Shown here: piece after piece, positions 3,637 through 48,678 of the stretch | Numbering within the stretch: position 1 is the stretch's first letter | How the letters are laid out: each line of letters starts with the position of its first letter | Assembly: GCA_902786595.1 (NCBI GenBank) | Contig: CADADB010000010.1 | Coordinates: forward strand, 26,406-90,405 | From: an uncultured Bacteroidota bacterium | GTDB taxonomy: Bacteria > Bacteroidota > Bacteroidia > Bacteroidales > WCHB1-69 | DNA length: 64,000 bases | Direction: 5' to 3' | Notes under the pieces: model-generated | The model's database searches: none | Told to the model about the DNA's origin: nothing | Seen by the model: only the letters and a program-made list of their open reading frames with translations | Position numbers and translations under genes: made by a program

Positions 3637-5106
3637 ATGGAAGAAAAATATGGCTTGTTAAAATTGGGAAGTGTAAAAAATTTGAAAACTAATGAAAAAG
3701 GACAAAATTGCGTGTCAATTTTATCACTTTTACTGGGTCGCAAAATAACTTTAAATGAAATTAATGCATTCATAGAGTCAGATGTTTTTTTTCTTGAATA
3801 TGTTGACAAGTACGGGAATGTTACAGAAAGTGACTCTTGTGTAGGATTTCGATTCAGGTTGCCATGGCGAGATGCAAATGGAAATGATATCTATGGCCAT
3901 TTCCAAAAAAACGGTTCCATGTTCATAGGTGTTACATGGGGAGGAAAAAGAAATTTGAAACTAAGAAAGTACGGATACATTGATCAAATTTGCTGGGAAA
4001 AACTAAAAACCATAAGTGGTCATGATATAACAGAGAGTAATATTGGAGACTATATTACTTCCGATATTGAACATTACAATGGCGCCGGTTATACTAAATT
4101 TCCAGATGGTACCGTAGTAACTTCGGAGACAGGAAAATTTGTTAAATTTAACACAAGTATCTCTGTAAATGGCGAAGTTTTAGTCGGTTGGTTCACAAAA
4201 AACAAACTAGGACGTTTTGAGGGAATTACTTGGGGTACGGAAGCGGATTTTAAGTCAGCACAAGATTTAAGAGAACAGTTTTATGTAGGACGTATGGTTT
4301 TCGATTCAATAGAAGAATGCAATCTGTTTTTGGAAGAGCTAAAGAAGAAAACCATTCTTGAGCCATGGGAATATAAACGCAAAAAAGACCATACTTTTAA
4401 AAATCCAATATTGAAATCCTATTTGCAGTTTGAATTGGATAGGCTTTTCTATGAACAAGATTCGTTAAACTATCCTGATAGGATAATTATCAACAAAGAC
4501 CACAGCAAAGCGTTGTTTAATACGAATCTCATTAACAAATTTGGAGATGATTTGATAATAGTTGGTTCTCTTCTTGAAATATCCAATAAATGTTATTTGA
4601 GCGAGCTTGAGATATCTCCCTCCATGATGAGTTTGAAAAAGATGGGCTTTGACACATCAAAAAATCCTATTCCACCAATGTTTTTTAAGGACATAAACGA
4701 AATCATATTCCACTGTGATTGGGATATTGATAAAGATTTAGAGAAGTATGAACATATTATTGAAGAACGCAAAGAAAGATTCCCTGAAAAATACCAAGTA
4801 CTAACAACAGATGATTTAGGACGAAGACTTAACAATGCAATACAACTTGCAAAAAAGATAGCACAACGAAACTACAAGTTTATTGTACCTATGTACTACC
4901 CTACAGCAAGAAGAATTCAGTTATTAATGCCGATTTATTTAGAAACATCTTATTCGTCACATCCGGATTTTGCATTAGTATTAACTCCTCATTCGGAAGA
5001 AAGGTTATATACTCTCGAAACAATACTTGGATTGGATGAAGTGTACCAGGATGCACGATTAATAGCAAAGCCTGAAGAATCTTGGCTTAACCCTGAGATG
5101 TTATAA
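3637..5106 (+). CDS. DUF3825 domain protein
   Basis: A 489-residue protein. The last 230 residues match DUF3825 as I know it: a helical LKSYLQFELDRLFYEQ start near 256, ALFNTNL near 295, YEHIIEERKERFPEKY in the middle, NYKFIVPMYYP and IQLLMPIYL near 415-435, and the closing DARLIAKPEESWL. The N-terminal half contains two related segments with F-x-G-x-T-W-G (near 92 and 190), suggesting an internal duplication. DUF3825 has no assigned biochemical role; it often sits beside RNA-binding domains. No signal or membrane segment is seen. It is the first large gene of the cassette; 167 nt separate it from the next gene. Confidence 0.75.
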   Translation: MEEKYGLLKLGSVKNLKTNEKGQNCVSILSLLLGRKITLNEINAFIESDVFFLEYVDKYGNVTESDSCVGFRFRLPWRDANGNDIYGHFQKNGSMFIGVTWGGKRNLKLRKYGYIDQICWEKLKTISGHDITESNIGDYITSDIEHYNGAGYTKFPDGTVVTSETGKFVKFNTSISVNGEVLVGWFTKNKLGRFEGITWGTEADFKSAQDLREQFYVGRMVFDSIEECNLFLEELKKKTILEPWEYKRKKDHTFKNPILKSYLQFELDRLFYEQDSLNYPDRIIINKDHSKALFNTNLINKFGDDLIIVGSLLEISNKCYLSELEISPSMMSLKKMGFDTSKNPIPPMFFKDINEIIFHCDWDIDKDLEKYEHIIEERKERFPEKYQVLTTDDLGRRLNNAIQLAKKIAQRNYKFIVPMYYPTARRIQLLMPIYLETSYSSHPDFALVLTPHSEERLYTLETILGLDEVYQDARLIAKPEESWLNPEML

Positions 5107-5273
5107 TATAATACTGCAAGAAAGTCTCGGATAAGTAAAAGGACAAAATATGTTAAAAAAATAATAGTGTAAACATTCCCTTTTTGAATGTACCTTGTGT
5201 TCTTTAAGAAGTTTTGACGCAGGAATTGTAAACTAAATAAATCTACAAATAAAAAACAACAAAATTATCATGT

Positions 5274-8270
5274 ATGAAATACCCTACAGTTTCAGAATAT
5301 ATAGAATCTCTTCGTGTTGCAAATGATAATCTTGCAACTTTGACATCTTTGGAGCTTGTTCTTGGTACAGATGGAAATCCAACTTATTCAAAAGAAAACC
5401 ATGGTGTTGTCTTTCGGATGAAAGATAGGGATACCGATTTAGAGTATAATGTAAAATGTTTTACTGATGAACAAGAAGGCAGAGAAACATTGTATGAGCA
5501 AATTAATAATAGTCAAGGTGTATGGATCCCTGATGGAGTTAAATATTATGCTAACGAGCTATTTGTAGATACTGCGATTTCGGATGCTAATGAATTTCCA
5601 GTTGTTGTTATTCCTTGTTGCAAAACGACAAACCTTATTTCTTTTATCAACACAAACATTGCAAATTGCTCGCTTATCTCAAAACTTGCAGATAGTTTTA
5701 GTTGTGTTGTAGAATGGGTTAAAGAAAAGGGTTGCTTTTGGCATGAACTAAATGTCGATTCACTTTATGTGAACGATACTGGTCATATTGTTGTTTCGGA
5801 TATTGACGGACACATTGAAACAACTAATTCTACCAAGAAAAACGATGATTTGAGCGCATACCTAATTCTTCTATCGCTAAAAGCACTGTATAGGGATTCA
5901 AGTTTGTTCAATGCAAAAGACGTCAAGCCGTATATTCTCTTCGATGGGGATAATTTCACCGAGCTTCCTGCAAATGAGATTATTACAAGATTGTCGATAT
6001 TAAATGATTCGGAGATTTCATCCATAATTAGTGATGTTTTCGTAAAAATTGGACATGGCAATTCTAATGAAACGCGAAACGACTTGCAGCAATCCGAGAT
6101 TTATGAAGACGGCCTAAAAATGATGGCGGAAAAGGGAAATGTTACAATGCAATTGCAGCTGGCGCGGAAATGTTGGGATAATGAAATGTATGAAGAATCA
6201 TTTAAATGGTATAAACAAGCAGCATCTCAAGAGGATGCAGATGGTTTATATGGCTTAGGATTGTGTTATCGTAATGGTTTTGGAATAGAAAAGGATTTGA
6301 CAAAATCATTTCATTGTTTTCTTAATGCTTCTGAGTTGGGATTGTTGGATGCTCAATATGAACTTGCTGAAGCATATTATTTCGGATGGGGAGTTCGCAA
6401 GGATAAGACAAAGGCAATGGATTTGTATTTCAAAGCTGCTCAAAGGGGGCATGCTATGTCAGAATTTATGATTGGTCATTATCTTATGTCCAATCGTGGA
6501 GAGATTGACAGCTCTTTTGCCATTACAAGTAAACGTGATACAGTGAAGGCATTTGAATGGTTTTTGAAATCCGCTAAACAAGGTTATCATCCTGCACAAC
6601 GAAGGATAGGTGCATTCTATGAAACCGGCACAGACCCTTGTGTAAGAAATATTAGCAAAGCTATGGAGTGGTATCAAAAGGCAGCTGCCCAAGGTAATGA
6701 TAAAGCCTTGTTTGCAATAGGAAGATTGTATGCCAATGGTCTTGATGAAAGAAATCCTGATAACAAGAAAGCTTATGAGTATTATTTGCAAGCGGCAAAT
6801 AAAGGTCTTCGTGATGCTCAGTTTAGGGTAGGTGTTGCATTGTTATTTGGCAAGGGGATAGACAAGGATAAAGATGCAGCTGTTGAGTGGATTCGAAAAT
6901 CTGCTGACAAAGGTTATGCGGCGGCAAAAAAGCTTATCATTGAAATTGAATATAGTGAAGAAGTCTCTGAAGAAACGGGAACCACAGGATTAGAAATTGT
7001 ATCTGCTACTATTGACGATTATGGTGTTCTTTATAGTCAAGACGGGAAAAAACTTTTGAAATATAGTATAGAAGAAGGATTCGATAGTGCTGGAATATAC
7101 GGTGGTTCAATAAGCATGTTTGATGAAGAAAGCGAATTTGGAAGCATAAAACAACAAAGTTTAAATCAATATAAAGTAAAAGAAGGGACAGAGATAATCT
7201 GCGAGAATGCTTTTTACGAATGCGAGTCTTTACAATCAATTACATTTCCTCAATCATTGAAGCGAATAGGAGATGATGCATTTTACCAATGCGAGAATTT
7301 GGAATATGTTGGAATTAATGAAGGTCTAGAAGAGATAGGGAACAATGCGTTCAATGGTTGCGTGAATCTATCATCAATAGTATTACCTCGATCACTTAAG
7401 CGGAGTGTTGCAGGAAGTACTTTTACGGGGGTTCAGGATATAGTATCTAATTCTGAAAAATACATTTGTGAAGATAATTGTCTGTATACATCAGACTTTC
7501 ACACTCTTATTTATTTCTTTCAAAATGGGGAGGACTACCTTGAAATACCGTATGGGGTTAAAACAATTGGAGCTTATGCATTTTCGGAATCTGATATTAG
7601 ACATGTTGATATTCCCGAATCTGTAACTGAGATAGGGTACTGTGCTTTTTCTCATTGTATGAATTTAAGACATATATATTTACCACGATCCATAATAGAG
7701 ATTGGCACTTCTGCATTTTATTGGTGCAAGAAATTAATTGAGGTTGATTTTCATGAAGGATTGGAAACAATTGGCCTTGATGCGTTCTTCAGTTGTGAAA
7801 ACTTAGGTGATATAAAAATTCCTGACACAGTAAGAGAGATTCAAGACAGGGCTTTTGCGTTTACCGGTATTGATTCGATAACTTTCCCGAAAAACCTAAA
7901 AATACTTGGTCGAGATCCATTTATTTCTTGCCCTCTGAGTGAAATCGTGTCTTTTTCTGAAAGATTTGTTGTTAAAGACATGGCAATATATTATGATGAA
8001 GGAAAGACTTTCATTAATTATTATGGTAAAGATACGAGGTTTGAAATTCCAGTCGGAGTAGAAAAAATCGCAGATTGGGCACTCTCAAATGCGTATTCTC
8101 TTCAAGAGATTGTGATTCCACAAACAATAAAGCAAATCGGGTGCGGATTTCTGCTTGAAGCATCGCCAAAAAAAATATTTGTCCCATCCAAGATTAGAGA
8201 TATTCTTATTGATAAGATACCATCCTATTTAGCCGACCGTGTATTTATGATTGAAGATGATAGTAATTGA
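5274..8270 (+). CDS. Pseudokinase - Sel1 repeats - BspA-type LRR protein
   Basis: A 998-residue cytosolic protein with three modules. Residues about 30-270 resemble a Ser/Thr-kinase-like fold: VVFRMKD...YNVKCFTDEQEG gives a beta3 Lys. The HGDLKPDN catalytic loop is replaced by WHELNVDS and the metal-binding DYDG by DIDG, so phosphotransfer is doubtful. Residues 275-560 are about seven Sel1/TPR-like repeats (for example AMEWYQKAAAQGNDKALFAI). Residues 635-960 are LRR_5 repeats of the BspA type (SITFPQSLKRIGDDAFYQC). Inference: a scaffold or sensor that reads partners through the repeats. Its stop overlaps the next gene by 14 nt, so the two are co-translated. Confidence 0.8.
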   Translation: MKYPTVSEYIESLRVANDNLATLTSLELVLGTDGNPTYSKENHGVVFRMKDRDTDLEYNVKCFTDEQEGRETLYEQINNSQGVWIPDGVKYYANELFVDTAISDANEFPVVVIPCCKTTNLISFINTNIANCSLISKLADSFSCVVEWVKEKGCFWHELNVDSLYVNDTGHIVVSDIDGHIETTNSTKKNDDLSAYLILLSLKALYRDSSLFNAKDVKPYILFDGDNFTELPANEIITRLSILNDSEISSIISDVFVKIGHGNSNETRNDLQQSEIYEDGLKMMAEKGNVTMQLQLARKCWDNEMYEESFKWYKQAASQEDADGLYGLGLCYRNGFGIEKDLTKSFHCFLNASELGLLDAQYELAEAYYFGWGVRKDKTKAMDLYFKAAQRGHAMSEFMIGHYLMSNRGEIDSSFAITSKRDTVKAFEWFLKSAKQGYHPAQRRIGAFYETGTDPCVRNISKAMEWYQKAAAQGNDKALFAIGRLYANGLDERNPDNKKAYEYYLQAANKGLRDAQFRVGVALLFGKGIDKDKDAAVEWIRKSADKGYAAAKKLIIEIEYSEEVSEETGTTGLEIVSATIDDYGVLYSQDGKKLLKYSIEEGFDSAGIYGGSISMFDEESEFGSIKQQSLNQYKVKEGTEIICENAFYECESLQSITFPQSLKRIGDDAFYQCENLEYVGINEGLEEIGNNAFNGCVNLSSIVLPRSLKRSVAGSTFTGVQDIVSNSEKYICEDNCLYTSDFHTLIYFFQNGEDYLEIPYGVKTIGAYAFSESDIRHVDIPESVTEIGYCAFSHCMNLRHIYLPRSIIEIGTSAFYWCKKLIEVDFHEGLETIGLDAFFSCENLGDIKIPDTVREIQDRAFAFTGIDSITFPKNLKILGRDPFISCPLSEIVSFSERFVVKDMAIYYDEGKTFINYYGKDTRFEIPVGVEKIADWALSNAYSLQEIVIPQTIKQIGCGFLLEASPKKIFVPSKIRDILIDKIPSYLADRVFMIEDDSN

Positions 8271-8958
8271 GTCAAAAAGAAAGAAACAAGAAACATTGCA
8301 GAAGGAATATCCTAATGCGGTGTTTTGTGATGTGACGAGCAAATCACCATATCTTGGATTAAGGCAATTAAGTCCGTTTTATCCATGGGGAGGTATACCT
8401 GTTAGTTTTTCACCAGGAGTTGAAGCCTCTTGTGTAGAAGCAGTATGGCAAGGATTGAAAGTGTTTGAAAACGCTGATGTTGATACGGAATTGTTTTTAA
8501 ACAACACTATGAAAGGTCTAAAACGCTCGTCACGAGTTTATGGTAAAGTCTTGGGGCACAGGAAAGGTGTTGATGGTGAAATATTACTTAATTATCATGA
8601 TGCTCGTAGAAAAATATACATTCCCACATATAAGTGGATGTTGGAACATAAAGCTTTTTATACCATTGAATATTTAAGGGCTTTTTGCCAAGAAAACCCC
8701 AACGTCACTCTCGTATTATTAGATTATCAGACAAATAGCAATATTGAGGATCTAACCAAGCCTTTGTCTCACGCATTTTTGGTTAAATCATACGTAGAGG
8801 GATTGCCTCCGTATGATGATGTAGTGATAGAGAAAACGGTTCACCATGTGGTCGTTGGGCGACGTGTTCATGAATGGCAAACAAAAGAGTATTCATTTAA
8901 GAAGCTCCCAGTGGTTGACGACAATAACAAACAATTAGCAATTGATTTCGATGAATAG
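8257..8958 (+). CDS. NADAR-like / DUF6939-type protein, candidate ADP-ribose hydrolase
   Basis: A 233-residue protein; I use the ATG at 8257 (MIVIESKRKK) in place of a TTG six bases earlier. It resembles a Bacteroidetes family I remember as DUF6939 (name from memory). The pattern LSPFYPWGG...CVEAVWQGLKVF (38-70), then KVLGHRKG (97-104) and DARRKIYIPTYKWMLEH (115-131), follows the layout of NADAR domains: a FYP entry loop, a conserved E..QGLK helix, a K-LG segment and an R...M helix. Some NADAR proteins remove ADP-ribose from guanosine and neutralise DarT1 toxins. The neighbour overlapping by 8 nt is a DarT-like gene, which supports an antitoxin role. The fold match is inference. Confidence 0.6.
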   Translation: MIVIESKRKKQETLQKEYPNAVFCDVTSKSPYLGLRQLSPFYPWGGIPVSFSPGVEASCVEAVWQGLKVFENADVDTELFLNNTMKGLKRSSRVYGKVLGHRKGVDGEILLNYHDARRKIYIPTYKWMLEHKAFYTIEYLRAFCQENPNVTLVLLDYQTNSNIEDLTKPLSHAFLVKSYVEGLPPYDDVVIEKTVHHVVVGRRVHEWQTKEYSFKKLPVVDDNNKQLAIDFDE

Positions 8959-10360
8959 AAGGAAGGATTACAAAGAGTTTAAGCAACTTCTTGAGAAGTA
9001 TAATATTACAAAGTTTTATCACTTCACAGACCGTGACAATGTTGATTCTATAATCAAAAATGGTGGACTGTTCTCTTATGGTGATTGTATTAAACGCGGA
9101 ATTAGAATAAACAGGCCAGGTGGGTCGGCGTTGTCGCACGAACTGGATTATAAAGAAAATTTGCAAAATTATGTTAGGGTTAGTTTATGCAAGAAACATC
9201 CAATGATGTTTACAGCAATACAGGATGAACGAATCGTAAACCCTGTGATATTGGAAATTGACACAGATGTTCTTTTTATAAAGGGTAATATTTTTTCAGA
9301 TAAGAATGCGGTTCGGAAAGATTCATGTAAGGGAAAGAGTTTCGCTGATTTTAGCAGAATACATTTCAATACAGTCAAACAAAGGAACCAATTTGAGGTT
9401 GATGATGACGAGCAAGACTATTATCAGGCAGAAATACTGGTACCACATCACATCTCGCTTAACTATATTTTGAATTTGACCGATTTCCAAACATTGGATT
9501 CTGAGAGAAAAGAGAGTTGTCTTAAGATACCTTATTCTTCAGCCATTACTCGGGAAAATCCAGCTGGTATTTTCTTCATACTTAATCAATCGTATCCCAC
9601 AGAAGAAAAGATAGAGTATGGAGGTGAAAAGATGTCCAAGGCAAGAGTTGAAGGAGGCATTGTTGATAAAGTGATAAACGAACTTATTTTGAGTAATACA
9701 AGTAATGGTGTCCTCAATGATAAGTATAATATTTCTGTTATTGGATATGGTGACTATGCGTATAGTTGCTTTGAAAAAGGAAATGTTCATACTTTGAAAG
9801 AGCTCCAAGATAATCCATTGTTTGTTAGAACAATGTCCAAAAAAACTAAGACACGACAAGGAACAAAAACAATCGAGATAAAACAACCAACATGGATAAA
9901 AACTAATAGTGATGGGGATGCAAAACTATATAAAGCCCTAAATAAAGCTCGAGATATAATTGAGAACTGGGCAGAGGAACATGAATCGTCATACCCACCT
10001 ATTGTGATACACATCACAGAATACAGATACCATGGCGCGGATGATAGTGATATGAAGCAAATGGCAAACCAAATAAAGTCCATATTTACAAAAGATGGGA
10101 ATGCCTTGTTTTTCAACATCATTCTCACGGAAAAGGAAGATGCTGTTTCCGTACTATTTCCATATGACAATCAAGCAGTTTCAGACTCATATTATGGGAC
10201 GATGTATTGTTTAATGTCCAGCATTTTGCCAAAATCATTTAATCAAAATGTCGCTTGTTTTAATGAGATTGAAGATGTTTTATGTCAAAGATATGGAATA
10301 GCCTTTAATGTTAAATTCAAGGACTTATTTGATACTATACTCTCTATTATACCAAAATGA
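8951..10360 (+). CDS. DarT-like ADP-ribosyltransferase fused to degenerate vWA domain
   Basis: A 469-residue protein from the ATG at 8951, overlapping the previous stop by 8 nt. Residues 1-180 resemble DarT/DUF4433: KFYHFTDRDNVDSIIKNGGLFS (21-42), VSLCKKHPMMFTAI (77-90) and YYQAEILVP (158-166), where Glu161 is the candidate catalytic residue. DarT enzymes attach ADP-ribose from NAD to DNA bases. Residues about 200-465 resemble a vWA domain of the type with MSKARVEGGIVDKVINEL, VIGYGDYAY, and PPIVIHITEYRYHG. The metal-binding MIDAS looks lost: the expected DxSGSM is LNQSYP (211-216) and ITDG is ITEY. Inference: the toxin is tethered to a partner through a metal-free vWA. Confidence 0.75.
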   Translation: MNRRKDYKEFKQLLEKYNITKFYHFTDRDNVDSIIKNGGLFSYGDCIKRGIRINRPGGSALSHELDYKENLQNYVRVSLCKKHPMMFTAIQDERIVNPVILEIDTDVLFIKGNIFSDKNAVRKDSCKGKSFADFSRIHFNTVKQRNQFEVDDDEQDYYQAEILVPHHISLNYILNLTDFQTLDSERKESCLKIPYSSAITRENPAGIFFILNQSYPTEEKIEYGGEKMSKARVEGGIVDKVINELILSNTSNGVLNDKYNISVIGYGDYAYSCFEKGNVHTLKELQDNPLFVRTMSKKTKTRQGTKTIEIKQPTWIKTNSDGDAKLYKALNKARDIIENWAEEHESSYPPIVIHITEYRYHGADDSDMKQMANQIKSIFTKDGNALFFNIILTEKEDAVSVLFPYDNQAVSDSYYGTMYCLMSSILPKSFNQNVACFNEIEDVLCQRYGIAFNVKFKDLFDTILSIIPK

Positions 10361-41461: not shown

Positions 41462-41534
41462 TATGGTTAACAGTTTTAATATCAGGTTTTTAATGCGCCA
41501 CGAACAAAGAACGGATCCCTGTCGTTTCGCGGCG

Positions 41535-41543
41535 GCAAAGGTA
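41535..41543 (-). promoter_or_regulatory. Promoter of the lytic transglycosylase gene
   Basis: GCAAAGGTA on the plus strand reads TACCTTTGC on the minus strand and faces the MltD-like gene. Confidence 0.55.
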
Positions 41544-41652
41544 CGCAATTATTCTTTATTGTGGGGTGGCTTTTATGGTGGTCGCGCCGAAAGTTGACTT
41601 TAGCTATCTGCTTTGAATATAGTTTTTTCGTTATCAATGCTAAAAAAAATGT

Positions 41653-41661
41653 TACTTTTGC
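41653..41661 (+). promoter_or_regulatory. Promoter of the RyR/TIR operon
   Basis: TACTTTTGC, 45 nt before the ATG at 41707. No other promoter-like element is visible within the four genes that follow. Confidence 0.65.
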
Positions 41662-41706
41662 GGCTGGCAAGCGTATAATGGTATAATCTTAAATAAAATA
41701 TAGGTT

Positions 41707-43848
41707 ATGTCCAAAAAGAGAAATAATGTCAAACTATTCCTCGACAGGGCGATGTCGCGCAGCTTCAGTCGGCAGATTCTCATCCTGCTGGTCTTGTTTG
41801 TCGTCCTGTTGCTGATATCCTACTTGCTGCTCTCCTTCTCCGGTTCTGACTGGAGAGCCTATTGTGCATACAAAGGCATCCCGGTGTGGTCGTTGCCGTT
41901 GTTTCTGTTGATAGATACCAGCGCGTATAGCTATGTCTATTTTGGCGAGGGGACCCATGGATGGCTGTTGGTGGCCAGCGGGATCTCCTACCTCTTCGGT
42001 CTTATCATCTTCAACGGCATCATGATCGGTCTTATCACCAACGCCATCGACAACCGCGTGGATGCGCACCGCGACGGCCTGCTGCACTATGTCAAGAGCG
42101 GCCACTACATCATCATGGGCTATGATGACATGGTTCCGTCTATCATCACCGAGATATTTGCCAAGACGCCTAAAGCAGATGTGGTGCTGCTGTCGGCTCT
42201 GGATGCCAAACAGCTGCATGAGATACTCCTCCGCTCCGTGGCCCGCGACAAGATGGATCAGATATTCATCGCCTACGGTCACCGGATGGTGAAAGATGCC
42301 TACCAGGATATCCATCTGGAATCATCAGAGGCTATCTATATCGTCGGCAACCGAACCAGACCGGAACATGACGCCATCAACGTGGAGTGCGTGGATAACA
42401 TCTACATGTATCTGACAGAAAACCACTTCAACCAAATTCCGAAACGGGTTGTCTGCGTCTTCGAAGACTTTGACACCTACTCGGCTTTCAAGACTACCGA
42501 AATATTCTCGCAGATCGGCGACTTGGGGATTGAATTTGTGCCGTATAACTTTTATGATGACTGGGCCACCCAAGTCTTTGTGCGCCGTTCCTATAAGGAG
42601 AAGAACAATGTGGCTGTGGAGATCCCGTATCCCTCTGTCTATGGCAAGGGCATATGCTATGAGGACACGAAACGGGTGCATTTGGTCTTTGTGGGAATCA
42701 CGAACTTCTCCATCTCTTTGGCTATGGAAGCGGCCCATCTGCTCCATTTTCCTAATGTCAACCGCGATAAAGCCCTGCGGACACGCATCACATTCATCGA
42801 GAAGAATGCCGACGAGGAGATGCGCTTGTTCGTCACCCGCAACCGGCATTATTTTGAAGTCCAGCCCTTCTTCTATTGCGATATGTCGAAGGATGATGCG
42901 GCGTATCTTCCTGTGAAAATCGATCAGCGTGTCTCCCGGGAGCTGCCGGACACGGACTTCCTGGACACCGAGTTTGAATTTGTCAAAGGGGATGTCTATG
43001 CTGATGGAATCCAGCATCTGATCAAGAGTTGGGCGCAGGATAAGGATCACGAATACCTCTCCATCTTCGTCACAAGATCCGACCAGCGCCATAATTTCAT
43101 GACGGGGATGAACCTTCCCGACGAGGTGTACGACAATGCGGTGCCGGTCTTCATCCGTCAGGATCGTGCCGACGACTTCGTCACCAACCTGCGGGCGGCT
43201 GACGAAAAGGTGTATACTTATGGCAAGGTGGAGGACGGAACGCTGGTGCAGGAGAGACGCCGACATCGCTATGCCAACATCTATCCTTTCGGCATGAACG
43301 ACATGGCCTATTGGTCTGATGAGACCCCGCTGAAGCAAGCCAAACTGTTGAACTATCTCTATGAGACCGCCGACTACAGCACCTTCCATTTTACCAGTCT
43401 TGCAGATCTGGACGCCATGCCCGCCACCGCACTGTGGGCCGAGGCCGACCGCTATTGGCGCGCTCTGACCATGGCCAAGAAATGGTCGAATCTCTATTGC
43501 GCATACAGCATCTCCTGCAAATTGGCTACGCTGAGGACCATGCGGGGACTGGAGCCCGATGACCGGTCTCAAGACCTTCAAGACCTCAGCGCCGAGGAGG
43601 TCGAGATGCTTGCCCGTGTGGAGCACAACCGTTGGAATACCGAGAAGCTGTTGATGGGGTTTCGCAAGCCCAAGAAGGCGGAAGACAAGTACGAGAACCC
43701 ATCTTACGACCGAGAACTGCAAAACAACAAGGAGTTGTATGTCCATTATGATATTCGTCCGTTTGAACAACTGCCTCCAGACGTGCAACAGCTGGACTAT
43801 GAGATTTCGCAATATATCCCGTGGCTGTTACGCATGACGACACTCTAA
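41707..43848 (+). CDS. Ion-channel-like membrane protein with RCK-like domains and C-terminal RyR domain
   Basis: A 713-residue protein. Two membrane helices (about 24-46 and 82-112) flank a pore-like segment (WSLPLFLLIDTSAYSYVYFGEGTHG), the layout of CASTOR/POLLUX-type channels. Then follow two Rossmann-like regions: HYIIMGYDDMVPSIITEI...VVLLSA (near 135-165; the usual GxGxxG is altered) and VHLVFVGITNFSISLAMEAA near 325. The C-terminal 80 residues form a RyR domain (LARVEHNRWNTEKLLMGFR...PFEQLPPDVQQLDYEIS). Inference: a ligand-gated inner-membrane channel. First gene of a four-gene operon, 13 nt before the next. Confidence 0.8.
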   Translation: MSKKRNNVKLFLDRAMSRSFSRQILILLVLFVVLLLISYLLLSFSGSDWRAYCAYKGIPVWSLPLFLLIDTSAYSYVYFGEGTHGWLLVASGISYLFGLIIFNGIMIGLITNAIDNRVDAHRDGLLHYVKSGHYIIMGYDDMVPSIITEIFAKTPKADVVLLSALDAKQLHEILLRSVARDKMDQIFIAYGHRMVKDAYQDIHLESSEAIYIVGNRTRPEHDAINVECVDNIYMYLTENHFNQIPKRVVCVFEDFDTYSAFKTTEIFSQIGDLGIEFVPYNFYDDWATQVFVRRSYKEKNNVAVEIPYPSVYGKGICYEDTKRVHLVFVGITNFSISLAMEAAHLLHFPNVNRDKALRTRITFIEKNADEEMRLFVTRNRHYFEVQPFFYCDMSKDDAAYLPVKIDQRVSRELPDTDFLDTEFEFVKGDVYADGIQHLIKSWAQDKDHEYLSIFVTRSDQRHNFMTGMNLPDEVYDNAVPVFIRQDRADDFVTNLRAADEKVYTYGKVEDGTLVQERRRHRYANIYPFGMNDMAYWSDETPLKQAKLLNYLYETADYSTFHFTSLADLDAMPATALWAEADRYWRALTMAKKWSNLYCAYSISCKLATLRTMRGLEPDDRSQDLQDLSAEEVEMLARVEHNRWNTEKLLMGFRKPKKAEDKYENPSYDRELQNNKELYVHYDIRPFEQLPPDVQQLDYEISQYIPWLLRMTTL

Positions 43849-43861
43849 AACCCTAACCACG

Positions 43862-44161
43862 ATGAATCATACCCCAGATATTCCGATTACTGTTGACACC
43901 TCCCATGTGGAGCTTCCCGAAGAGTTGCAGGCTGTCGCCGAGCGAATGGCCGAGCATGTCCACGAGGTGTGGGCGGCCGCACGTGTTGCCCAAGGCTGGA
44001 CCTATGGTCCGGAGCGCAATGATGCCGACAAAAAGCATCCTTGTCTGATTCCCTATGCTCAGTTGCCTGAAGAGGAGAAGGCCTATGACCGGGAGACCAG
44101 CACCGAGACGTTGAAGTTCTTGATGGTCAGTGGCTTTGAGATAGTCCCTAAACATCAATAA
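43862..44161 (+). CDS. Small RyR-domain protein
   Basis: A 99-residue protein that is almost entirely a RyR domain: VAERMAEHVHEVWAAARVAQGWTYGPERNDADKKHPCLIPYAQLPEEEKAYDRETSTETL. The H-VW...GWxYGP...KxHPCLxPYxxLxxEEKxYDR pattern is the one found in the repeats of ryanodine receptors. Prokaryotic RyR domains are proposed to bind nucleotide-like ligands. It is better conserved than the RyR tail of the channel protein before it. Spacers are 13 nt upstream and 20 nt downstream. Confidence 0.9.
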   Translation: MNHTPDIPITVDTSHVELPEELQAVAERMAEHVHEVWAAARVAQGWTYGPERNDADKKHPCLIPYAQLPEEEKAYDRETSTETLKFLMVSGFEIVPKHQ

Positions 44162-44181
44162 CCCTTTTGTGCCTATCGTTT

Positions 44182-45312
44182 ATGGAGCAGCAGTATAAAT
44201 ATTTTGCCTTTATCAGCTACAACTCCCATGACTTGAAGTGGGGGAAGCGCCTGCAGAAGAAGCTGGAGCACTATCGTATGCCGGCCACCTTGTGCAGCGA
44301 GCGCGGCTGGAAGCGGACGCCCATCCAGCCGGTCTTCTTCGCGCCTACCGACATCCAGCCGGGAGGCCTCTCGCAGGAGCTGCAGGAACGGCTGAAGGCT
44401 TCTCGCCATCTGGTGGTGATCTGCTCGCCCCATTCGGCCAAGTCGGAGTGGGTGGGCCGCGAGATGGCCTTCTTCCACCAACTGGGCAGGACCCAGGATA
44501 TACACTTTTTCATCGTGGAGGGCGAACCTCACAGCGGCGACCCCGACACAGAATGTTTCAATCCCATGGTGGAGACGCTGGGACTGCACGAGATCCTCGC
44601 CGCCAACATCCATGAGGATGTTCACCGGATCTCCTACCTGAACCGTGAGCGGGCCTACGTGCAGCTTGTCTCCAAACTGCTGGATGTGGAGTTCGACGCG
44701 ATATGGAAACGCCACCGCCGACAGCTCATCCGTAAGGCCCTCGCCTGGGTGCTCGGCATACTCGTTGTGTTCGCGGCGCTGGTCGGCGTATGGCGCCATG
44801 GCCTGCCTATGGATGTGACCCTGCGGGTGAACGAGGTCTCGGAATACAATGCCAACCTGCCGGAGATGCAGGATGCTGTGGTGACCTTGGTCCTCCCCAA
44901 CAAGACCGAGACGGACACTCTCCGGACGATGGATGGGAAGGTGGTCTTCCGCAACATCCCCCACAAGTATCTCAACAAGCCGGTCCATGTGACCGTCTCC
45001 TGCCGCGACTTCCTGACCACCGACACGACGGTGGTGCTGACCGAGACGGTGACGGTGAATATGGCCCGCGACCCGGCAGTCTATGGCGACATCCGTTTCC
45101 GCCTTTACGACCCGCAGACGGAACAATATCTGTCTGGCGTGGAGATCGTGATAGAGGGCCAGACTGTAAGGTCCGACGAGACGGGGCTTGTCACGCTGAC
45201 CATCCCGCTGGCGGCACAAAAGAAGACCTATCCCATCATGGCATCTATCCCGCTGCATGAGGACAGTCTCTATATGCCCTGCGGCGATACCTATTGTATT
45301 TTCAGACAATAA
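44182..45312 (+). CDS. TIR-domain protein with membrane helix and extracytoplasmic Ig-like tail
   Basis: A 376-residue protein from the ATG at 44182. Residues 6-160 are a TIR domain: YFAFISYNSHD (7-17), FFAPTDIQPGGLS, LKASRHLVVICSPHSAKSEWVGREMAFF, with Glu94 in the SxWVxxE motif as candidate NADase residue. An HRRQLIRKA stop-transfer and a helix (about 188-207, ALAWVLGILVVFAALVGVW) follow. The last 165 residues hold two beta-sandwich carboxypeptidase-regulatory-like domains (AVVTLVLPNKTETDTLRTMDGKVVFRNIP and GVEIVIEGQTVRSDETGLVTLTI). By positive-inside reasoning the TIR is cytosolic and the tail periplasmic. Confidence 0.85.
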   Translation: MEQQYKYFAFISYNSHDLKWGKRLQKKLEHYRMPATLCSERGWKRTPIQPVFFAPTDIQPGGLSQELQERLKASRHLVVICSPHSAKSEWVGREMAFFHQLGRTQDIHFFIVEGEPHSGDPDTECFNPMVETLGLHEILAANIHEDVHRISYLNRERAYVQLVSKLLDVEFDAIWKRHRRQLIRKALAWVLGILVVFAALVGVWRHGLPMDVTLRVNEVSEYNANLPEMQDAVVTLVLPNKTETDTLRTMDGKVVFRNIPHKYLNKPVHVTVSCRDFLTTDTTVVLTETVTVNMARDPAVYGDIRFRLYDPQTEQYLSGVEIVIEGQTVRSDETGLVTLTIPLAAQKKTYPIMASIPLHEDSLYMPCGDTYCIFRQ

Positions 45313-45342
45313 TTCATCGTCATATCCTTGTTTACGATTATT

Positions 45343-47265
45343 ATGAAACGATTTATATTCTCCGTCATATTAGCCATGGCCGCCATCTCGATGGTCTCAG
45401 CACAGACCACCCAGAAGGGGTATGTGAAGACCAAAGGGCGGCTGGACAGCAAAGGTCAGCTGATTCCGGGCCAGCGTATCGCCAGTGCGGCTATCCAGCT
45501 GACGGGTGGCCATTCCACTGTGAGTGATGCTAACGGCAACTTCACCCTGACAGCGCCCGACAAAAAATTCTTCCTGAGCGATGTGCGGAAGCAGGGCTAT
45601 GTGCTCTCCGACCCCGACGTGCTGAAGAAACAGTATGCCTGCTCCTCCAACCCGCTGGTAATCACGATGGAGACACCCGACAAGCAGGCCGACGACCAGC
45701 TGGCTGCCGAGCGGAAACTCCGTCGCCAACTGCAGCAGCAACTGCAGCAGCGCGAAGAGGAGATAGACTCCCTCAAGGAACATAACAAACTGACGGAGGA
45801 GGAGTACCGCCAAGCTCTACAGAACCTTTATGCAGAGCAGGAGAATAAAGAACGACTCATCGCCGACATGTCCAGGCGCTATGCCGAACTAGACTATGAC
45901 CTGCTGGACGAGTTCTACCGCCAAGTGTCATTCTGTATTGAGCAGGGCGACTTTGTGAAGGCTGACTCGCTCCTGGCATCCCGTGGCGATGTGCGTCAGG
46001 AGGTGCTGGAGCAGCAGAAGAAGGGCCAGGCCCTCCAGGAACGTAAAAAACAACTGCGTCGCGCCGAGGCAGTGTTCGCCGCCGACAACGAGGAGGTTGC
46101 CCGCCGCTGCTATGGCTATTTCGAGAGGTTCTCCGCCCAGTTCCAGAACGACTCCGCCGCCTTTTATCTGGAACTGAGAGCAGAGCTCGATACTACCAAG
46201 GTGGACTGGCAGCTGGATGCTGGCACTTTCGTGGAAGACTACCTCGCCGACTACCCCAGGGCTATCGCCTATTACCAGCGTGCCCTCCGCCAGGCGGTCT
46301 CTCAAAATGGGAATGACAATCCGGCCGTGGCAGCATGCTATAACGATATCGGATATGTCTGCAAAACACAAGGAGACTATGAGCAAGCCATGCAGTGCTA
46401 CCAGAAATCTTTGGAGATATGGGATAAGGTTTACGAAGGACCACATCCCGATATGGCCATCAGTTATAACAATATAGGCGGGGCGCTCTATAGCAAAGGG
46501 GAGTATGCCCCAGCTATGGATTATTTCCAGAAAGCGTTGACCATCAACAGGTCTTTTTATGGGGAAAACCATCCCGATGTGGCGATGAGCTACAACAATA
46601 TCGGTCTTACCTGCTATGCGCAAGGTGATTATGTGAAGGCAATGGAATATTATCAGAGGTCATTGGATGTCAGAAAGATGGTCTATGGTGAAAATCATCC
46701 TGATGTGGCGGGCAGCTACAATAACATGGGTGCTGTTCGCTATGCCCAACGTGAATATGACCAGGCAAAGGAATATTATTTGAAATCTCTCACGATCTGC
46801 AAATCGGTATATGGCGAGAAACATCCCGATGTGGCAGTAGGTTACAACAATATCGGGTTGGTGTACTTTCTCCAGAATGATTATGCCCCAGCTCAGGAGT
46901 CTTTCCATAAAGCATTGTCTATCATCCGGTCGGTCTATGGCGACAATCACCCGCAGGTGGCGACCAACTACAATAACGTGGGAGCATTGTACAAGGCGCA
47001 AGGGGATTATGCCCAAGCTTTGGAATACTATCGGAAGGCACTGGCGATCTACCAGTCCGTCTATGGCGAGAATCATCATGATGTGGCTGTCAGCTATAAC
47101 AATATCGGGAATGTTTGCTATCATCAAGGCCAGTATGCCCAGGCTCTGGAGTGTTTCCAGAAAGCGTTCGCTATTTTGAAAGCGGCCTTAGGAGAAGATC
47201 ATCCCGACACACAATTCTTGAAAGAGTGTGTGGAAATCACCCAAGGCAAAATGCAGGATAATTAG
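45343..47265 (+). CDS. Exported protein with CarboxypepD_reg-like, coiled-coil and kinesin-light-chain-type TPRs
   Basis: A 640-residue protein from the ATG at 45343. A signal peptide (KRFIFSVILAMAAISMVSAQ) is followed by a beta-sandwich carboxypeptidase-regulatory-like domain (30-110, IASAAIQLTGGHSTVSDANGNFTL), a Gln/Glu-rich coiled coil (115-250) and seven TPRs of 42 residues (about 325-620; YNNIGxxxYxxGxYxxAxxYxxKALxI). The DNA of the TPRs is a 126-nt tandem repeat. Exported TPRs could touch the periplasmic tail of the TIR protein, whose domains resemble its N-terminus. Last gene of the operon. Confidence 0.85.
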   Translation: MKRFIFSVILAMAAISMVSAQTTQKGYVKTKGRLDSKGQLIPGQRIASAAIQLTGGHSTVSDANGNFTLTAPDKKFFLSDVRKQGYVLSDPDVLKKQYACSSNPLVITMETPDKQADDQLAAERKLRRQLQQQLQQREEEIDSLKEHNKLTEEEYRQALQNLYAEQENKERLIADMSRRYAELDYDLLDEFYRQVSFCIEQGDFVKADSLLASRGDVRQEVLEQQKKGQALQERKKQLRRAEAVFAADNEEVARRCYGYFERFSAQFQNDSAAFYLELRAELDTTKVDWQLDAGTFVEDYLADYPRAIAYYQRALRQAVSQNGNDNPAVAACYNDIGYVCKTQGDYEQAMQCYQKSLEIWDKVYEGPHPDMAISYNNIGGALYSKGEYAPAMDYFQKALTINRSFYGENHPDVAMSYNNIGLTCYAQGDYVKAMEYYQRSLDVRKMVYGENHPDVAGSYNNMGAVRYAQREYDQAKEYYLKSLTICKSVYGEKHPDVAVGYNNIGLVYFLQNDYAPAQESFHKALSIIRSVYGDNHPQVATNYNNVGALYKAQGDYAQALEYYRKALAIYQSVYGENHHDVAVSYNNIGNVCYHQGQYAQALECFQKAFAILKAALGEDHPDTQFLKECVEITQGKMQDN

Positions 47266-47271
47266 ATGGAA

Positions 47272-47400
47272 TCAGACGGTTTTGCGCTTCCCGTTTCGAA
47301 GGAGTGAGACCCCTTGCTCCAGCGCCTGGATCCCTTGGAGTGCCAGGAGAATGTATAACCGGCAGATGTTGCCGTGGCACACAAAAAGGATTTTGGTCAT
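47272..47400 (-). pseudogene. Truncated LMW protein tyrosine phosphatase
   Basis: An ORF of 42 codons. The first 14 residues, MTKILFVCHGNICR, are the intact N-terminus and C-x5-R active-site loop of low-molecular-weight tyrosine phosphatases. The next residues (LYILLALQGIQALEQG) do not continue the family (SPxAExxF is expected) and a stop follows. The break is at or just after the catalytic Arg. A minus-strand TAATTTCGC element near 47420-47430 may be its old promoter. Confidence 0.65.
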
Positions 47401-47439
47401 GGCCGTGATTTTTAGGGGTGCGAAATTACATTTTTTTTG

Positions 47440-47462: not shown

Positions 47463-47535
47463 GGGGTCGTAGCTCAGTTGGTAGAGCGCATGCTCCGCAA
47501 GCATGAGGTCGCGGGTCCGACTCCCGTCGGCTCCA
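47463..47535 (+). tRNA. tRNA-Ala-like gene, anticodon CGC, with unusual C33 and C55
   Basis: 73 nt fold as a full cloverleaf. The acceptor is GGGGTCG/CGGCTCC, the D arm GCTC/GAGC, the anticodon stem CATGC/GCATG and the T stem GCGGG/CCCGT, with discriminator A. By alignment to tRNA-Ala the loop TCCGCAA gives anticodon CGC. Two nearly universal bases differ: position 33 is C (not T) and the T loop is TCCGACT (C at 55). CCA is not encoded. It could be a functional minor tRNA or a decaying copy. Confidence 0.65.
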
Positions 47536-47565
47536 CAAAAAGCCCGAAAGAACGGGCATAAAAAA

Positions 47566-47839: not shown

Positions 47840-48604
<765 letters not shown>

Positions 48605-48635
48605 AATAGAACTTCGTTTAATCGAAATAACCGCC

Positions 48636-48678
48636 AACAGCTAATAGCCAATAGCTAATAGCCAATAGCCAACCGCCA
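48636..48678. repeat. Short tandem repeat, CAATAGC type
   Basis: Degenerate units AGCCAATAGCTAATAGCC before the FGE-like gene start, just downstream of lysS. The related CTATTAGCTGTTGG pattern lies on the other side of lysS (50445-50483). Confidence 0.75.

Follow-up and report, generated by a model that had tools for sequence, protein, structure and literature searches.

A Bacteroidales operon of four genes, mobile in appearance, suggests an NAD-derived signal that opens an RyR-type channel

Introduction

In animals, it is an old controversy whether molecules of the cyclic ADP-ribose (cADPR) type act directly on RyR domains. A Bacteroidales operon, found within a window of 64,000 nucleotides (the whole stretch of DNA that was analysed), raises the question of whether bacteria have their own version of a pathway in which NAD-derived signals open an RyR-type channel, as its gene content suggests. 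A single 6-kb cassette holds the presumptive synthase together with a pair of presumptive receptors, of which one is wired to a channel, and the cADPR-RyR question would thus become testable in a simple system.

Results

Operon structure and promoter

The operon consists of four co-directional genes separated by spacers of 13, 20 and 30 nt. The identities of these genes as channel, RyR, TIR and TPR proteins, proposed with the same spacers in an earlier note on this DNA, were confirmed by the open reading frames and domain searches.

41653..41660, + strand, TANNTTTG-like promoter box, which reads TACTTTTG (read from the sequence)
41707..43848, + strand, gene 1 (P0001), two-TM RCK channel with a C-terminal divergent RyR domain, 713 aa
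43862..44161, + strand, gene 2 (P0002), stand-alone RyR domain, 99 aa
44182..45312, + strand, gene 3 (P0003), membrane TIR protein with a predicted periplasmic tail, 376 aa, ATG start
45343..47265, + strand, gene 4 (P0004), TPR protein with predicted export, 640 aa, ATG start

The promoter box is located 46 nt upstream of gene 1, and we take it to match the Bacteroidetes -7 consensus. No well-spaced -33 TTTG was evident; the sigma-70 promoter scan was built for another promoter type.

Gene 1 encodes an RCK channel with a divergent RyR domain

41764..41835, + strand, TM1 of P0001, aa 20-43 (helix 20-43 in the model; hydropathy)
41878..41952, + strand, pore loop of P0001, with D70 at the filter position and no TVGYG (pore alignment)
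41962..42072, + strand, TM2 of P0001, aa 86-122 (helix 86-122 in the model)
42082..43506, + strand, RCK gating-ring region of P0001, aa 126-600 (profile matches and Foldseek)
43567..43821, + strand, divergent RyR domain of P0001, aa 621-705, with H640, W643, H680 and D697 (profile comparison)

The AF2 model of P0001 (pLDDT 87.5, pTM 0.81), profile searches and Foldseek together identified two TM helices and a pore loop followed by RCK, the architecture of an RCK-gated two-TM channel. The TM and RCK parts matched Slo1, GsuK and MthK in the profile search, and the model matched the GsuK, Slo1, MthK and CASTOR/DMI1 rings in Foldseek. Pfam reported for P0001 Slo-like_RCK only, below the cut-off (E 0.065), and detected Slo-like_RCK in 15 and TrkA_N in 4 of 30 channel family sequences (E up to 0.1). 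In the alignment of these 30 sequences, which comprises P0001 and 29 of the 36 channel ORFs, the position of D70 is occupied by D in 22, and a G[YFL]G filter is absent from the pore segment of every one (0/30). A plain K+ channel was rejected for lack of this TVGYG-type K+ signature. The pore motifs [DN]xG and DxGN occur in 16/30 and 8/30 sequences, respectively; P0001 itself reads IDTSAY at the filter.

The RyR part of gene 1, which the earlier note had described as RCK plus RyR, was recovered by profile methods, Pfam alone being silent. A profile of the C-terminal segments of the channels (27 of the 30 alignment rows) matched the RyR alignment in a single hhalign comparison at 96% (E 2.8e-9), and 8 of the 27 segments, the P0001 copy not among them, matched Pfam RyR (PF02026). 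These results overturn the conclusion, drawn from Pfam alone, that gene 1 is without RyR. The residues are well kept among the channels: H640 in 28/30, W643 in 30/30, H680 in 29/29 (one gap) and D697 in 29/30.

The stand-alone RyR protein and its putative ligand residues

P0002 is a clear member of PF02026 (E 4e-35, 120 bits vs a cut-off of 27.4). Among the stand-alone RyR genes (74 short RyR ORFs, after removal of a 75th that matched the TIR profile as well), H34, W37 and D76 in P0002 numbering are present in 74/74 and H59 in 68/74. The conservation of H34, W37 and D76 arises partly from selection, because the scan patterns for RyR genes contained these residues; H59 was in none of the patterns. 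According to a 2026 preprint (PMC13232231), the ligand in the RyDEP-3'cADPR structure is contacted by H75, W78, H100 and D117, and 2'/3'cADPR is bound by 6/8 tested phage RyR homologs. The spacing of H34, W37, H59 and D76 in P0002 is identical to that of the RyDEP residues. Both RyR domains of the operon keep the four residues that contact a cADPR-type ligand in RyDEP and are predicted receptors. Nothing on prokaryotic RyR domains was found in the passages seen of PMC7016017, PMC8195603 and PMC3482391.

The TIR and TPR proteins

44182..44571, + strand, cytoplasmic TIR domain of P0003, with E94 as the putative catalytic glutamate (Pfam, Foldseek)
44737..44799, + strand, single TM helix of P0003 (charge count; model helix 171-207)
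44806..45309, + strand, beta-rich tail of P0003, locally like pilin-type beta-sandwich domains (model, Foldseek)
45343..45402, + strand, signal-peptide-like N-terminus of P0004 (read by eye)
46228..47205, + strand, tandem TPR array of P0004 with 126-nt (42-aa) units (Pfam, repeat analysis)

P0003 matched both TIR_2 (5e-10) and ThsB_TIR (1e-5) above the Pfam cut-offs, and its TIR domain resembles those of RPS4, SARM1 and RUN1 in Foldseek. E94, which we take to be the catalytic position of the TIR domain, is kept in 16/16 orthologs of P0003 and in 53/53 TIR domains from the surroundings of RyR genes (61 ORFs matched TIR, and the 8 whose match spanned only about 80 aa or less were omitted), a conservation that is partly due to selection, since relatives of P0003 had served to build the TIR profile. 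Six K/R residues in the 21 positions preceding the TM helix and one in the 21 following it accompany a predicted topology with the TIR domain inside and the tail outside. The tail matched pilin-type domains in Foldseek with E 5e-7, at whole-chain TM-scores of merely about 0.2.

In P0004, Pfam detected TPRs, and most of the relatives listed have an N-terminus similar to its signal-peptide-like one. The earlier note had also proposed that the TPR protein has an N-terminal domain like the TIR tail. BLASTP found no similarity between the two and a common domain was not retained; a profile-profile match at 91%, over 39 columns only, lends weak support to a likeness.

The four genes are kept together in relatives

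Full-length copies of the P0003-type TIR numbered 18, in 17/104 genomes of the GTDB family, window included (26 matches less 8 weak, partial or tail-less ones, L231 among them). The complete four-gene set, in the gene order found here, is present at 12/18 copies; 17/18 are linked to an RyR gene and 14/18 to a channel, with one copy (L226) lacking RyR within its 19-kb stretch. This TIR-centred search refutes a chance gene order, and the possibility raised in the earlier note that the genes are not conserved together is contradicted by their retention as neighbours in relatives. In 3/18 copies the TIR-TPR pair has other neighbours, a larger RyR protein and a sigma-like gene, which would be expected of RyR as a receptor with an exchangeable output.

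TIR_2 lies within 5 kb of RyR in 12/25 RyR-bearing genomes, own included, compared to an expected 0.14; this count uses 28 of 31 RyR places, the other three falling below the cut-off or within ORFs or genomes that had been counted before, and it takes distances from start to start and genome sizes as rounded values. A TIR gene is present in the operon of the RyR gene at 27/78 loci, so that most are without one. In a 79-locus set (78 used; L135 had no RyR ORF called), TIR genes show a modest excess near RyR, with 33 of 374 genes within 3 kb vs 11 of 260 beyond 6 kb (p 0.026), and the TPR excess (12/374 vs 3/260 at the same distances) is not significant (p 0.11). A stand-alone RyR occurs beside the channel in 7/14 order genomes with a P0001 match of E < 1e-20 (own included), one of which (G142) has it one gene away. 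The four genes co-diverge across 11 of the 12 canonical loci (Mantel r 0.85-0.97; L218, whose TPR gene is cut by the contig end, was omitted), a result that physical linkage alone also gives. Mis-binning of MAG contigs is possible.

The cassette adjoins a tRNA gene

47463..47536, + strand, tRNA-Ala (cgc), with the cassette insertion beside it

Next to this tRNA the cassette forms a clean insertion of 6 kb (about 41463-47427), and Rfam at gathering scores reported two tRNAs and nothing else. The site is empty in one relative (L232), and alternative cargo occupies the same tRNA site among relatives. The four-gene operon is mobile-looking.

Discussion

Proposed mechanism

The analysis shows which domains the proteins contain, which residues are conserved, what topology is predicted, how the genes are linked and co-diverge, and how the insertion site behaves. 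We consider it fairly probable that the operon is a Thoeris-like module, mobile and immune or abortive, in which a cADPR-type signal made by the TIR protein opens an RyR-gated cation channel. The TPR protein and the beta-rich TIR tail would sense a trigger, probably in the periplasm, and thereby activate the cytoplasmic TIR domain. The TIR domain may then convert NAD+ to a signal derived from ADP-ribose; the intact glutamate and TIR biochemistry make an isomer of cyclic ADP-ribose the likeliest product. The signal would be bound by the stand-alone RyR and by the RyR fused to the RCK gating ring, which perhaps pair like the two repeats of the animal R12 domain, and binding would open the two-TM channel, let cations flow and arrest or kill the cell. 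Cell depolarisation by channel opening is plausible. The interpretation of the earlier note, an NAD-derived signal acting on the channel, is partly supported: linkage, the TIR glutamate, the RyR ligand residues and the phage RyR preprint agree with it. A more specific version, to which we give only limited credence, is a Toll-like cADPR-RyR-calcium pathway in which an outside trigger acts via the TPR sensor and TIR tail, and a CASTOR-like RCK channel passes Ca2+ or other cations.

The role of the stand-alone RyR could differ from that of a receptor, because phage RyR proteins counter such signals. It may be an off-switch (a glycosidase or sponge, RyDEP-like) that sets a threshold, leaving the channel RyR as sole receptor. 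H34 and D76 of P0002, both present in all 74 stand-alone copies, match the RyDEP catalytic dyad H75/D117 in the passages of PMC13232231, and channels with an RyR-like C-terminus have no adjoining stand-alone RyR in 7/14 genomes. However, in the same preprint the signals are cleaved by RyDEP and by none of eight tested homologs, and a stand-alone RyR is the immediate neighbour of 23/36 channel ORFs (at loci selected by RyR), which fits a subunit too; we regard an off-switch as rather unlikely.

The TIR protein could also be a scaffold or plain NADase, with TPR/TIR depleting NAD+ alone and the channel a separate ionic or osmotic passenger module. Loci L226, L081 and L086 have TIR-TPR, and their fetched stretches contain neither a channel nor RyR; direct NAD+ depletion by TIR-STING is described in the literature. 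The RyR linkage of 17/18 full-length family TIR copies and the proximity of TIR to RyR in 12/25 genomes nevertheless make this improbable. Alternatively, the operon may serve a housekeeping or host-sensing pathway, such as cell-envelope stress, leading to adaptation rather than suicide or phage defence. The predicted exported TPR protein, the outward TIR tail and the sigma-like partners in 3/18 loci point to envelope signalling, whereas conflict is the better fit for the patchy presence (17/104 genomes), for an insertion site at a tRNA that also takes alternative cargo, and for phage RyR proteins directed against such signals (PMC13232231), and we hold this reading to be a minority possibility.

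If the preferred reading of a TIR-made signal and an RyR-gated channel is true, TIR immunity would gain a receptor class and an output through a channel, and the presence of RyR proteins in phages would be easier to explain. In the more specific calcium version, RyR would be a swappable receptor, with outputs that include the channel, C39-like or sigma-linked proteins and others, and bacterial immunity would already contain the logic that appears later in the RyR signalling of animals and the Ca2+ signalling of plants.

Comparison with known systems

The P0001 family shares two pore TMs and an RCK gating ring with the GsuK, MthK and Slo channels, and differs from them in lacking the G[YFL]G filter and in having a C-terminal RyR domain. 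With the plant Ca2+ channels CASTOR, POLLUX and DMI1 it shares the RCK gating ring, the absence of TVGYG and the filter Asp. The ring match of P0001 to CASTOR/DMI1 reached E about 1e-6 in Foldseek, whereas the sequence match to DMI1 was merely E 0.15. The CASTOR-type Ca2+ channel filter given in the literature passages, AD(S/A)GNHA, is resembled by the DxGN of eight family members, P0001 having IDTSAY; these passages do not mention an RyR domain, which is present in P0001. In animal ryanodine receptors, for which cADPR is implicated as a modulator in the passages of PMC13232231, an RyR (R12) domain likewise serves an ion channel. Only this module is common, and the P0001 pore part had no match to RyR channels in the profile search or Foldseek.

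Phage RyDEP belongs to the same Pfam family as P0002 and has the same four ligand residues at identical spacing. RyDEP is a phage evasion protein, whereas P0002 is cell-encoded and lies beside a TIR gene, with a second RyR copy fused to a channel. A classical ThsA effector (SIR2-SLOG or Macro-TM) was found in none of the four proteins by Pfam and PADLOC, nor were SIR2-SLOG, Macro or caspase domains by Pfam; in PADLOC, gene 3 drew no more than weak TIR matches, and genes 1 and 2 drew none. In common with Thoeris, the operon has a TIR gene, with the putative catalytic glutamate and a ThsB_TIR match, beside a putative receptor of an ADPR-type signal, and it differs from Thoeris in that its TIR protein is predicted to be membrane-bound with an outward tail.

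Operon layout and gene linkage

The earlier note had claimed a four-gene operon, and reading of the sequence agrees: the genes lie on one strand, with spacers of 13, 20 and 30 nt.

41707-47265, + strand, gene calls:
P0001, 713 aa, two-TM RCK channel with a RyR C-terminus
P0002, 99 aa, stand-alone RyR protein
P0003, 376 aa, membrane TIR protein
P0004, 640 aa, exported TPR protein

We assessed linkage in both directions, from the TIR and from the RyR genes. P0003 matches of any kind occur in 24 of the 104 family genomes, and full-length matches comprise 18 copies in 17 genomes. The channel-RyR-TIR-TPR order is found at 12 of these 18 copies (the window, genome G120 and ten further loci), and locus L225 and genome G325 (L224 and L143 joined, same TPR genes) carry TIR-TPR followed by channel-RyR. 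In L228-L230, a sigma-like gene and a RyR protein of 310-314 aa replace the channel and the small RyR gene; that the TIR-TPR pair stays unchanged beside this exchange supports a receptor role for RyR. No RyR gene was found within the 19-kb stretch of L226. The genes are thus conserved together in the neighbourhood search that the earlier note had proposed, with 17/18 full-length TIR copies RyR-linked and 14/18 channel-linked. Against this reading, L081 and L086 hold TIR-TPR pairs without RyR in the fetched stretch.

A Sigma70-ECF-like gene followed by a RyR-domain protein was observed at L228:688-2164, L229:7413-8901 and the similar L122:8460-9936, all with TIR genes in the loci. The sigma70-ECF matches (1e-8 to 4e-10) lie under the curated cut-off. 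The RyR protein has a weak anti-sigma-like N-terminus and, where scanned, a marginal C39-peptidase-like part (23.5 bits in L229, 25.3 bits in L122; cut-off 24). We regard this pair as a second output type for RyR. A SIR2-like/TIR fusion followed by a large protein also recurs in RyR loci (L125:3614-9362, L142:2206-6171, L165:3418-9417), with Pfam run on L125 only and the P-loop-like N-terminus of the large partner seen by eye.

Seen from the RyR side, PF02026 is present in 25/247 genomes of the order, with a single match in the window's own genome (2.84-Mb draft). These 25 genomes contain 34 TIR_2 matches, spread over 20 of them, and TIR_2 lies within 5 kb of RyR in 12/25 (11/24 without the own genome), where random placement expects 0.14 genomes. 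The best 80 matches listed in a RyR-alignment search gave 79 genome loci, 78 of them scorable, the closest named records among those listed being 'Bacteroidales bacterium' MAGs, several from ruminant gut samples. Among these best matches listed, the same predicted operon includes a TIR gene in 27 of the 78 loci, an RCK channel in 25 and both in 14. In the same set, genes within 3 kb of RyR, compared with those beyond 6 kb, were enriched for TIR (33/374 vs 11/260, p 0.026) and for channels (26/374 vs 3/260, p 0.0004); the TPR counts were 12/374 vs 3/260 (p 0.11). These loci, which were selected by RyR, contain 36 channel ORFs, and 23 of them directly adjoin a stand-alone RyR gene. Against the reading, P0001 matches at E < 1e-20 occur in 14 genomes of the order (the window's own among them), and the channel has a stand-alone RyR gene as its neighbour in 7 of these, counting G142 at one-gene distance.

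Channel fold and pore

The product of gene 1 is a channel. The profile of 30 channel sequences (P0001 and 29 of the 36 ORFs) matches Slo1/BK (1e-5), GsuK (2.5e-5) and MthK (1e-4) over the TM and RCK regions. In structure comparison, the P0001 AF2 model (pLDDT 87.5, pTM 0.81) was closest to GsuK, followed by Slo1, MthK and the gating rings of CASTOR and DMI1. The K+ signature G[YFL]G is found in 0/30 pore segments, which read [DN]xG in 16/30 and DxGN in 8/30; the position of P0001 D70 is D in 22/30. CASTOR is a Ca2+-selective RCK channel with the filter AD265(S/A)GNHA, and D265N abolished its activity (PMC6697748). The DxGN of the eight relatives resembles this filter, but the resemblance is a lead rather than proof, since the window copy instead reads IDTSAY and the channel profile matches DMI1 only at E 0.15.

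RyR domains and putative ligand residues

A RyR domain at the P0001 C-terminus, as the earlier note had proposed, was recovered by profile methods. PF02026 directly matches 8/27 channel C-terminal segments and gave no match on the window's own. With hhalign, the 27 segments aligned to 13 stand-alone RyR proteins (96%, E 2.8e-9, single comparison), and the H-x-x-W, H and D positions line up. The whole channel profile matched a two-RyR-copy chain (E 1.4e-7; 0.02 per copy) and the Bacteroides-type RyR chain 3nrt (E 0.005). Across the alignment, H640 (28/30), W643 (30/30), H680 (29/29, one gap) and D697 (29/30) are kept.

In a preprint, the phage PF02026 protein RyDEP, which cleaves both 2'cADPR and 3'cADPR, contacts its ligand through H75, W78, H100 and D117; of eight phage homologs, six bind these signals and none cleaved them (PMC13232231). 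The four kept residues matter because their RyDEP equivalents contact ligand. P0002 H34, W37, H59 and D76 have the spacing of RyDEP (+3, +25, +42, by published RyDEP residue numbers), and the H-to-D spacing of 17 recurs in the channel copy (H680, D697). Among 74 stand-alone RyR genes from the best 80 matches listed, H34, W37 and D76 are kept in all 74 and H59 in 68; the scan patterns held the first three, whose conservation is thus partly by selection, and H59 was in no pattern.

RyR domains also occur in 259/50,697 phage records (E up to 0.01) and on 13 viral contigs (L193-L205), among which L205 alone adjoins a TIR gene. These are candidate counter-defence proteins.

TIR and TPR proteins

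P0003 is a predicted membrane TIR protein, with an N-terminal TIR domain and one TM helix (6 K/R before, 1 after). Its beta-rich tail locally resembles pilin domains, with low whole-chain TM-scores (model pLDDT 82, pTM 0.47). E94, four residues past W90, is the putative TIR catalytic glutamate. It is present in 16/16 orthologs and in 53/53 TIR domains of the 79 RyR loci (best 80 matches listed; 8 shorter TIR matches left out); the TIR profile derives from P0003 relatives, so selection accounts for part of this conservation. P0004 is likewise as described earlier, a predicted exported protein whose N-terminus is signal-peptide-like and whose TPR units are each encoded by 126 nt. Ortholog lengths of 645/687 and 638/680 aa differ by 42 aa in each pair, which is one TPR unit.

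Insertion site and mobility

The cassette shows the behaviour of a mobile unit. In G275 (same genus, no P0003 match), what we take to be lysS is followed by tRNA-Leu, tRNA-Ala and a presumed lytic-transglycosylase-like gene, and the gap between the last two homologous stretches is 56 bp vs 5.97 kb, containing the operon, in the window. Other cargo occupies this site in G268 (no P0003 match) and G281 (its P0003 copy elsewhere), and other orthologs have several different flanking gene sets. Across 11 canonical loci, divergence is correlated among the four genes (Mantel r 0.85-0.97), as linkage alone would produce. The patchy distribution fits defence systems and is no proof of one.

At window 47840-48637, an FGE-sulfatase-like gene lies between tRNA-Leu and the lysS-like gene, with no homologous stretch there in three relatives (L232-L234); we regard it as another, small insertion next to these two tRNA genes. 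Elsewhere in the window, a low-GC block (3637-10360; 34-37% over 4-10 kb) encodes DUF3825, Sel1/LRR_5, DUF6939 (NADAR-like under cut-off) and DarT ADP-ribosyltransferase proteins, judged from sequence a probable second NAD-linked toxin-antitoxin-like set. A YhcG-type PDDEXK nuclease protein with a DUF1016 N-terminal domain is encoded at 1246-2442.

Proposed mechanism and comparison with known systems

We propose that a trigger would act on the TPR protein and the TIR tail, that the TIR domain would then make an ADPR-type signal, and that binding of this signal by the RyR domains would open the channel and arrest the cell. P0002 and the RyR domain of the channel may form a pair, by analogy with the two RyR repeats of animal R12 domains and the RyDEP homodimer (PMC13232231). 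Alternatively, P0002 may serve as an off-switch. No TIR-RyR-RCK operon was described in the literature searched, a coverage outside which most subscription papers fall, and genes 1 and 2 were without match in PADLOC 2023. Because the classical ThsA that belongs to Thoeris is absent from the window operon, we file the operon not under Thoeris but under the TIR-signal/receptor-effector kind.
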